Shown: positions 19,856 to 21,238 of the stretch, piece after piece
Position numbering within the stretch: the first letter of the stretch is position 1
How the letters are laid out: each line of letters begins with the position of its first letter
Assembly: GCA_017536545.1 (NCBI GenBank)
Contig: JAFXHF010000014.1
Location: 1 to 64,000, forward strand
From: a bacterium
Lineage (GTDB): Bacteria; Cyanobacteriota; Vampirovibrionia; Gastranaerophilales; Gastranaerophilaceae
Reading direction: 5' to 3'
Length of the DNA: 64,000 nucleotides
Translations under genes and position numbers: made by a program
The notes under the pieces: model-generated
What the model saw: only the letters and a program-made list of their open reading frames with translations
Database searches by the model: none
What the model was told of the DNA's origin: nothing

Positions 19856-20059
19856 TTATTCATCTGCTAAAAATTGTGGTAATTCAACGTCAGGAGTACC
19901 AATAACTCTAACCAATTCCAAAACTGATGCTTTCATTTGACATTTTTGAGAAGAACCGCTGAAGAAATCTCTATAAAAACATCCTTCGCAATTACATCCT
20001 CTCTTGTAGCACTCTAATGCAGTTGTAGTCCATCTTCTAACCGCTACTGCTCTTCCCAT
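19856..20059 (-). CDS. Small Cys-rich protein of unknown family
   Basis: 67 residues from the ATG at 20059, preceded by AGTAGGGA; a GTG twelve codons upstream is less likely. Five cysteines are arranged as ECYKRGCNCEGC and later KCQMK, a spacing (CxxxxCxCxxC...C) typical of a Zn or Fe-S site. The C-terminal part (MKASVLELVRVIGTPDVELPQFL) is a conserved-looking helix. I remember similar sequences in Gastranaerophilales and Clostridia but no function. It is a single gene next to the structured intergenic region. Confidence 0.7.
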   Translation of the reverse strand: MGRAVAVRRWTTTALECYKRGCNCEGCFYRDFFSGSSQKCQMKASVLELVRVIGTPDVELPQFLADE

Positions 20060-20291
20060 ATCCCTACTTCTAAACAATGTATAAATCTCCACTTAAATTT
20101 TACTATCCAATCGATATCCCAAATATATACCGACCAATCTCCCCAAAGCCGTTTATATCAATGACTTCCGACTTCATAATTTCATTATAGGAAATAAGTA
20201 TTTTTTTTCAAGATGAGAACATGCTCTTATGAAGTTTTGTAACGTAACCCTGTAATAGTGCTGAATTCAGCCTTTTGAGATTTTAAAACGG

Positions 20292-20370
20292 CTAAAACCA
20301 TGTCATGACATGGTTTTAGAAATTTTGAACCATGGAAACCCATGATAGGACATGGTTTTGCATGGTTTTG
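20292..20370. repeat. 28-bp palindrome plus CATGGTTTT repeats
   Basis: Bases 20292-20319 are a perfect palindrome with half-site CTAAAACCATGTCA. The half ACATGGTTTTG recurs at 20350-20360, CATGGTTTTG follows at 20361-20370, and ACCATGG lies at 20329-20335. Several spaced copies of one half-site suggest an operator array or a recombination or packaging element. Confidence 0.6.
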
Positions 20371-20384
20371 TTGCTTATTAAGAT

Positions 20385-20413
20385 TTGTAAAATATTTCAC
20401 AAATATCTAAAAT
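20385..20413 (+). promoter_or_regulatory. Plus-strand promoter before the structured RNA region
   Basis: TTGTAA (20385-20390), a 17-bp spacer and TAAAAT (20408-20413) match sigma-70 well. No protein gene follows on this strand for 800 bases, so a non-coding transcript is the simplest product. Confidence 0.5.
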
Positions 20414-20438
20414 TGGGCATGCCCGACTGTGTAATTAT

Positions 20439-20610
20439 GAAAAAAGGACAGGTTTCAAATGCGAAATCTGTCCTTAGTTATCGGCTATTTCCCTTAGTTG
20501 AGAGAAGAATCATTTCATGCTGTATGATTCATAGCCGTCTGTATTCCGTTCGCCTGTTTTGCATGCCCCAAAATCTCCGGGTATAATTCGAACATTGGAA
20601 TACAAATTTT
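20439..20610. ncRNA. Candidate structured non-coding RNA (strand uncertain)
   Basis: Four consecutive pairings are visible. 1: AAGGACAGGTTTC (20444-20456) with GAAATCTGTCCTT (20463-20475), 13 bp. 2: GGCTAT with ATAGCC, enclosing GAATCAT paired with ATGATTC. 3: GTATTCC and GTTCG on one side with CGAAC and GGAATAC on the other, 12 bp with a 3-base bulge. 4: an inner TTTTG with CAAAA. On the plus strand a good promoter precedes it and a T-rich stretch follows; on the minus strand helix 1 is followed at once by six T, a terminator, and the RNA could be the 3' end of the hsp20 message. I matched it to no known family (not RNase P, tmRNA, SRP or tRNA). Confidence 0.5.
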
Positions 20611-21093
20611 TTATTTTTCTTTTATTTCTAATTTTTTAGGTTCTTTTGTTTCGATATTTTGTTTCGGTATTGTAATTGTCAAAACTCCATCTTTATATTC
20701 TGCTTGAGCTTCATCAACTTTGATTGGTTGATCAAAAGAGATTGTTCTTTGGTATTTGCCATATCTGAATTCTGAGGTATGATATCGTTTGTTATTTTCT
20801 TCTTGTTTTTCTTCTTCTTTTTCTTCGTGAGTTTCTGCACAAATTGTCATAAAGTCGTTATCGATTTCAACATCAATGTTGTCTTTTTTTATCCCTGGAA
20901 GTTGAACTTTGACTTTGTAGTTATCTTTATTCTGGATAACTTCAATGGCAGGACGCAGAATTGTGTTTTTTATCATATTTAAGGGATGACCGAATGTGTG
21001 GGTTATGAATGTATCACGTAAAAAATTATCTAATTCTTGATGAATACTGTCAAAATATAATTCAGGTTCTCTGACGATTAAATTGTGTTTCAT
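20611..21093 (-). CDS. Small heat shock protein, Hsp20 family
   Basis: ATP-independent chaperone that holds unfolding proteins. 160 residues: an N-terminal arm, the alpha-crystallin domain (about 47-145; AIEVIQNKDNYKVKVQLPGIKKDNIDVEID...DGVLTITIPK with the conserved GVL), and a C-terminal tail. A glutamate/lysine insert (EEKEEEKQEENNKRYHTSEFRYG) sits in the loop before the beta-6 strand. The AAGGAGC ribosome site fits the start. The gap to the divergent dehydrogenase holds an inverted repeat that might be the heat-shock operator, although it does not match CIRCE. Confidence 0.93.
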   Translation of the reverse strand: MKHNLIVREPELYFDSIHQELDNFLRDTFITHTFGHPLNMIKNTILRPAIEVIQNKDNYKVKVQLPGIKKDNIDVEIDNDFMTICAETHEEKEEEKQEENNKRYHTSEFRYGKYQRTISFDQPIKVDEAQAEYKDGVLTITIPKQNIETKEPKKLEIKEK

Positions 21094-21139
21094 ATAAGCT
21101 CCTTTCTATTCTAGATTAAAAGTTTTTTGTTAGTTTATC

Positions 21140-21190
21140 ATTGGAAAGTTGGATAATTTTTTCTTATTAAATCTTGTACTTTTTTCCAAT
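21140..21190. promoter_or_regulatory. ATTGGAAA/TTTCCAAT inverted repeat between hsp20 and dehydrogenase
   Basis: ATTGGAAA (21140-21147) and its exact complement TTTCCAAT (21183-21190) are 35 bp apart between two divergent genes. The core resembles the TTGGAAT half-sites of the XRE gene at 16148. Confidence 0.4.
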
Positions 21191-21238
21191 AGATAAAATA
21201 TTACTTCGCAGAAACAATATCTAAAAAAGGAGTATTTT

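Follow-up and report, generated by a model that had tools for sequence, protein, structure and literature searches.

Structured RNAs that occur as a single copy across genera are few, and each of them (6S RNA, tmRNA, raiA/ModT, and OLE) pointed to a distinct biology. OLE is an orphan structured RNA with a protein partner, far larger than the RNA described here and found in other phyla. Many bacterial 3′ untranslated regions (UTRs) release base-pairing small RNAs (sRNAs), while a compact pseudoknotted domain with an intrinsic terminator immediately behind it is the usual layout of terminating switches. The raiA RNA has eight helices, P1 to P8, and the apical loop of its P3 pairs with the P5/P6 junction (PMC11751092). 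The Gastranaerophilales are gut-dwelling relatives of the cyanobacteria. In the literature searched, papers on candidate RNAs included, we found no description of structured RNAs from the Gastranaerophilales or Melainabacteria.

In the window, i.e., the whole stretch of 64,000 nucleotides analyzed, the minus strand carries a structured RNA of about 170 nt that begins 4 nt past the stop codon of an hsp20 gene and consists of a core of 128 nt (20606 to 20479) and a terminator (20475 to 20438). The initial annotation had proposed, at 20439 to 20610, a 13-bp stem, nested stems of 6 and 7 bp, and a bulged 12-bp stem. All of them are present; the first pairs 20444 to 20456 with 20463 to 20475, the nested stems correspond to P4/P5, and the bulged one corresponds to P1/P2/P3 (Table 1). 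The proposed interval covers the RNA well but the long-range helix between 20565 to 20561 and 20520 to 20516 had been missed. When positions 20430 to 20620 were folded, the described stems formed on both strands, with z scores of −5.1 (plus) and −5.85 (minus), and 0/200 shuffles folded as well. The segment is also less AT-rich than its flanks, as had been noted (GC content of 0.39 versus 0.33 and 0.28). Six U residues follow the 13-bp stem when it is read on the minus strand, and the stem was for this reason taken as an intrinsic terminator, in line with what had been suggested for this end of the segment. The RNA was assigned to the minus strand on three grounds: the tail of this terminator, a conserved upstream block that resembles a promoter, and G-U combinations outnumbering A-C ones in the aligned pairs (50 versus 9 cells). 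The good promoter claimed for the plus strand did not hold up, since the best site just upstream reached 9/12 and the scan returned 8 sites when 5.8 are expected by chance.

Table 1. Coordinates of the RNA, its helices, and the neighboring upstream features in the window
Feature	Position	Strand	Basis or remark
Whole RNA, core and terminator	20438..20606	-	Model match 20479-20606 (minus) plus terminator
Conserved core, modeled by R1/R2	20479..20606	-	R1: 120 bits, E value of 2.7e-27, single copy in own genome
P1 5′ strand (with 20540-20547)	20597..20604	-	Covarying pairs
P1 3′ strand	20540..20547	-	Covariation
P2 5′ strand (with 20548-20552)	20589..20593	-	4/4 modeled pairs covary
P2 3′ strand	20548..20552	-	Covariation
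P3 5′ strand (with 20567-20571)	20577..20581	-	Covariation analysis
P3 3′ strand	20567..20571	-	Covariation analysis
Pseudoknot strand 1, CAUGC (with 20516-20520)	20561..20565	-	100% of cells paired; compensatory variants
Pseudoknot strand 2, GCAUG, in P5 apical loop	20516..20520	-	100% of cells paired; compensatory variants
P4 5′ strand (with 20482-20487)	20532..20537	-	5/6 pairs covary
P4 3′ strand	20482..20487	-	Covariation
P5 5′ strand (with 20507-20513)	20524..20530	-	6/6 modeled pairs covary
P5 3′ strand	20507..20513	-	Covariation
Intrinsic terminator, 13-bp stem and U tract	20438..20475	-	Terminator present in 40/47 homologous loci
hsp20 gene, upstream of the RNA	20611..21093	-	Present or absent in relatives
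Conserved promoter-like block (CAATGA... TTTTAATCTAGAATAG)	21105..21144	-	Inferred to drive hsp20 and RNA, or RNA alone; start site not mapped

Screening the window against Rfam 15 (4227 models) at the gathering cutoff retrieved only RNase P, elsewhere in the stretch. With E values of up to 10, the region from 20100 to 20700 gave 11 subthreshold matches, each covering at most a small part of the core, and a search of 20 homologous loci with E values of up to 2 found nothing over the RNA core. The initial annotation had recognized no known family, and these searches agree; judged by the lack of any Rfam match, the RNA family is previously uncatalogued. An unrecognized housekeeping RNA could be discarded, as the 6S, tmRNA, SRP, and RNase P RNAs were each located elsewhere in the genome, the 6S RNA (RF00013) at C3:55205-55382 and above the gathering score. 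The nearby gene for HPF made raiA/ModT (RF03072) a tempting candidate, but it was rejected because there was no model match, the topology is different, and HPF is not kept across genera. At E values of up to 10, neither the own genome nor its genus gave an RF03072 match, and the best one in the order (21 genomes) reached 13.9 bits versus a cutoff of 101.3. A dispersed repeat or the end of a mobile element was also discarded, given the single copy in the genome.

To collect relatives, a search with Hsp20 was run and yielded 80 loci, most of which bear Gastranaerophilales or Melainabacteria in their titles. Among the closest of them, the core aligned directly after hsp20, and over all 80 loci the 180 nt following this gene had a mean folding z score of −3.4, versus −0.35 inside it. 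Two models of the RNA were built, R1 from 12 sequences and R2 from 32 more diverse members, both without the pseudoknot and with E values that are only rough. R1 found exactly one copy in the own genome, the window sequence being one of the 12 used to build it. Among the genomes drawn from the order, each of those in the same genus had one R2 match (41/41, one of them weak, with an E value of 0.07); R2 also matched members of the genera g22, g25, g26, and g27, with weak matches in g34, g36, and g45. No homologue was detected by the model searches outside the family in the order or phylum, stricter filters being applied in the large searches, and in several other genera of the family neither model found anything although hsp20 was present. 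Loci L065 to L088, from genera without a model match, have well-folding segments after the hsp20 stop codon (z scores down to −6.6) with other architectures, whose homology remains undecided. Most of the genomes compared are metagenome assembled.

RNAalifold recovered only a partial structure from the first MAFFT alignment because the P1/P2 strands were misaligned, so the structure was named by hand and the sequences were realigned with a covariance model. In the 32-sequence alignment, 93.8% of the cells were paired and 27/33 pairs changed on both sides. Double-change cells numbered 212, versus 55 ± 5.8 in shuffled and 20 to 38 in slid controls, and the covariation score was 0.579 versus 0.192 after shuffling. 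It must be kept in mind that these cells count sequences rather than events and that the alignment was fitted to the structure, so that the figures lean towards it; an earlier MAFFT-only alignment of 12 sequences gave the same covariation picture. Covariation in orthologous regions, the check put forward with the initial annotation, is thus strong, and together with the lack of an Rfam match it supports the candidate novel structured RNA next to hsp20 that had been proposed. A covarying secondary structure on one strand, the criterion for a structured noncoding RNA, is met, and we regard the existence of the family as close to certain.

The pseudoknot helix, CAUGC:GCAUG, joins the two domains of the molecule and, across all members, varies in a compensatory way (CGUGC:GCACG, CGUAC:GUACG, CAUGUUA:UAACAUG, and CAUGUAA:UUACAUG), with extensions such as CAUGCAA:UUGCAUG. 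Rows lacking this pairing mostly reflect an insertion misplaced by the model. Read by eye, the g26 members have CGUGGUG in the strand beside P3 and CACCACG in loop 2. In a divergent class, the partner strand lies in the loop of an inserted hairpin and forms 6 to 7 bp with the second domain, again with compensatory changes (AGUCGGC:GCCGAUU, AAUCGGC:GCCGAUU, and ACUGGC:GCCAGU). The class with the inserted hairpin comprises L029, L030, L031, L033, L037, and L062, where it lies past hsp20. No linker separates P3 from the pseudoknot strand, and from this we infer that stacking of the two helices is possible. Only a few unpaired letters are conserved (A-R-U-U after P2, an A and a U in the P3 loop, and an A after the pseudoknot strand), so that no defined binding or catalytic site stands out.

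The adjacency to hsp20 pointed out at the beginning is real in the window, but the gene turned out to be an optional neighbor and not a partner that defines the RNA. Many same-genus loci have no hsp20, and there the RNA occurs by itself, with a divergent D-2-hydroxyacid-dehydrogenase-like gene (DDH) on one side and the downstream genes on the other; hsp20-less RNA loci appeared also in g22, g26, and g27, i.e., in at least four genera. The RNA was present in every locus compared, including every hsp20-less locus found. However, loci were recruited with Hsp20 or with the RNA models, and genomes lacking both hsp20 and the RNA would be invisible. On the DDH tree, the hsp20 state changed at least seven times, with the starred branches forcing seven. 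This tree alone cannot separate gain from loss; loss is favored by gene content, because the locus-type hsp20 is found in many genera of the family and the hsp20-less genomes have only a distant paralogue elsewhere (E value of about 1e-20). In L108 and L110 to L118, as well as L106 and L128, DDH matches extended over only about 100 amino acids (133-amino-acid open reading frames [ORFs] in several). This short-DDH subclade belongs to the same genus and also lacks hsp20, with DDH upstream of the RNA.

Read by eye, the DDH-hsp20 and DDH-RNA intergenic regions have in common a block made up of TAATGAAA, a spacer of about 17 nt, and TTATTCTGATAATG, which is followed either by the ribosome-binding site of hsp20 or directly by the RNA. 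In the hsp20-less loci, the RNA usually lies directly behind the same kind of block. The formal motif search settled on another one, CTATTnCnCnAAAGT, which exceeded chance in the majority of the hsp20-less loci but not in every one. This second block, common to these loci, lies in the divergent intergenic region (21094 to 21238) and is perhaps the promoter of the dehydrogenase gene. On the other side of the RNA, genes vary by genus (FAD-dependent oxidoreductase, transporter ATPase, glycosyltransferase, and others), and the downstream gene is convergent in g22 and part of g26. In the window, a 78-amino-acid ORF and HPF come downstream, with the next sense ORF about 350 nt past the terminator; HPF is found there in many same-genus loci, a neighborhood not kept in other genera. 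The 78-amino-acid ORF, on the minus strand upstream of HPF (19856 to 20092), is conserved, cysteine rich (CYKRGCNCEGCFYRDFF), and 84 to 100% identical in relatives. Past the terminator, positions 20265 to 20436 contain a TCGGGCATGCCCGA-type palindrome, an array of AAAACCATG repeats with inverted copies, and a conserved ATATTTTACAA(T/A)TCTTAATAA. Several relatives (L009, L010, L013, L023, and L024) also have these elements past the RNA, and there were only two partial matches elsewhere in the genome.

We consider that this locus encodes a stand-alone structured noncoding RNA, representing a new single-copy family that acts in trans, perhaps as a ribonucleoprotein (RNP), rather than a cis element of hsp20 or of the downstream gene (probability of about 0.7). 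The structure is observed through covariation; transcription, regulation, and the trans role are inferred, in the absence of expression, processing, or binding data. If the RNA were instead an element of the hsp20 mRNA 3′ UTR, a stability structure or a thermosensor adjusting hsp20 dosage, its start right after the stop codon, a terminator that closes the hsp20 transcript, and the unusually good folding of hsp20 3′ regions over the 80 loci would all be expected. What such an element could not explain is why the RNA is kept, usually behind a promoter-like block, in the hsp20-less loci of at least four genera, after at least seven independent changes. This retention argues against a cis role on hsp20 and has already largely refuted an explanation that we find improbable. 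A terminating riboswitch or attenuator acting on the downstream gene (the 78-amino-acid ORF and HPF in the window) has even less to recommend it: its layout, a pseudoknotted domain followed by an intrinsic terminator, and the presence of HPF in many same-genus loci would fit, but downstream genes differ between genera, no conserved sense gene follows directly (the distance to the next sense ORF in the window being an example), and where the neighbor is convergent there is nothing in sense to regulate. Taken together, the hsp20-less loci and the variable, often convergent downstream genes indicate neither a 3′-UTR device of hsp20 nor a riboswitch of a fixed gene.

Retention without hsp20 would fit any trans role, including that of a base-pairing sRNA released from the hsp20 3′ end and exposing a seed to mRNAs, a kind of release that is common in bacteria. 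We see this as unlikely, as a long run of conserved unpaired letters is lacking, the pseudoknot takes up those that are conserved in the loops, the sequence drifts while pairing is kept, and a search of 11 genomes of the order revealed no Hfq gene. Inverted repeats often occur next to genes, and the stems could in principle be one at the DNA level, a mobile-element end or terminator decoration without any functional RNA. This can practically be ruled out by the single copy in the genome, the G-U versus A-C strand asymmetry, the position conserved across genera, and a covariation that includes a pseudoknot, which a DNA cruciform would not make.

According to the preferred reading, that of a trans-acting RNA, two hairpin domains, P1-P2-P3 and P4-P5, are locked together by a 5- to 7-bp pseudoknot, in which the P5 apical loop pairs with the strand immediately 3′ of P3. 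Where hsp20 is present, the RNA would be the last part of its transcript; where the gene was lost, a similar promoter-like block usually stands directly before the RNA in the sequence, from which transcription is inferred. Most likely, the RNA is released from the hsp20 message or outlasts it and serves a protein partner in trans as a compact scaffold, forming an RNP, and we infer that its synthesis accompanies induction of the small heat-shock protein. That it acts in trans is inferred from its being kept where hsp20 is missing. In the same way, its persistence as a single copy per genome, even after loss of the heat-shock gene, suggests that the RNA itself has a job. Whether it is a housekeeping-like class of one bacterial family, unrelated to catalogued RNAs and with an activity of its own (RNP scaffold or ribozyme) within a heat-shock or stationary-phase program, hsp20 being a dispensable passenger, we judge to be an even bet. 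Repeated loss of hsp20 with retention of the 3′-terminal RNA would amount to a natural experiment in which the untranslated tail outlives the coding part, making it directly testable whether the RNA or the protein is the selected product.

Compared with known systems, the RNA resembles 6S RNA in being a single-copy bacterial noncoding RNA, but the 6S RNA of its own genome is at a separate locus. Like 3′-UTR-derived bacterial sRNAs, it sits at the 3′ end of a stress-gene transcript and carries its terminator; unlike them, it forms a compact structured domain without an evident seed, becomes free-standing after loss of the host gene, and has no Hfq found to accompany it. It shares with OLE RNA a structured nature, not being the riboswitch of one gene, and a function that is not evident from sequence, but no Rfam family, OLE included, matched the RNA in the window or its relatives. 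The likeness to raiA/ModT extends to a compact, pseudoknotted, terminator-ended single-gene RNA of similar size (210 nt for raiA), with a gene for HPF (raiA type) nearby in the genus of the window. However, the pairing of the P3 loop with the P5/P6 junction (PMC11751092) is absent here, and it is the strand 3′ of P3 that pairs with the apical loop of a later hairpin, in a molecule built of two side-by-side domains.
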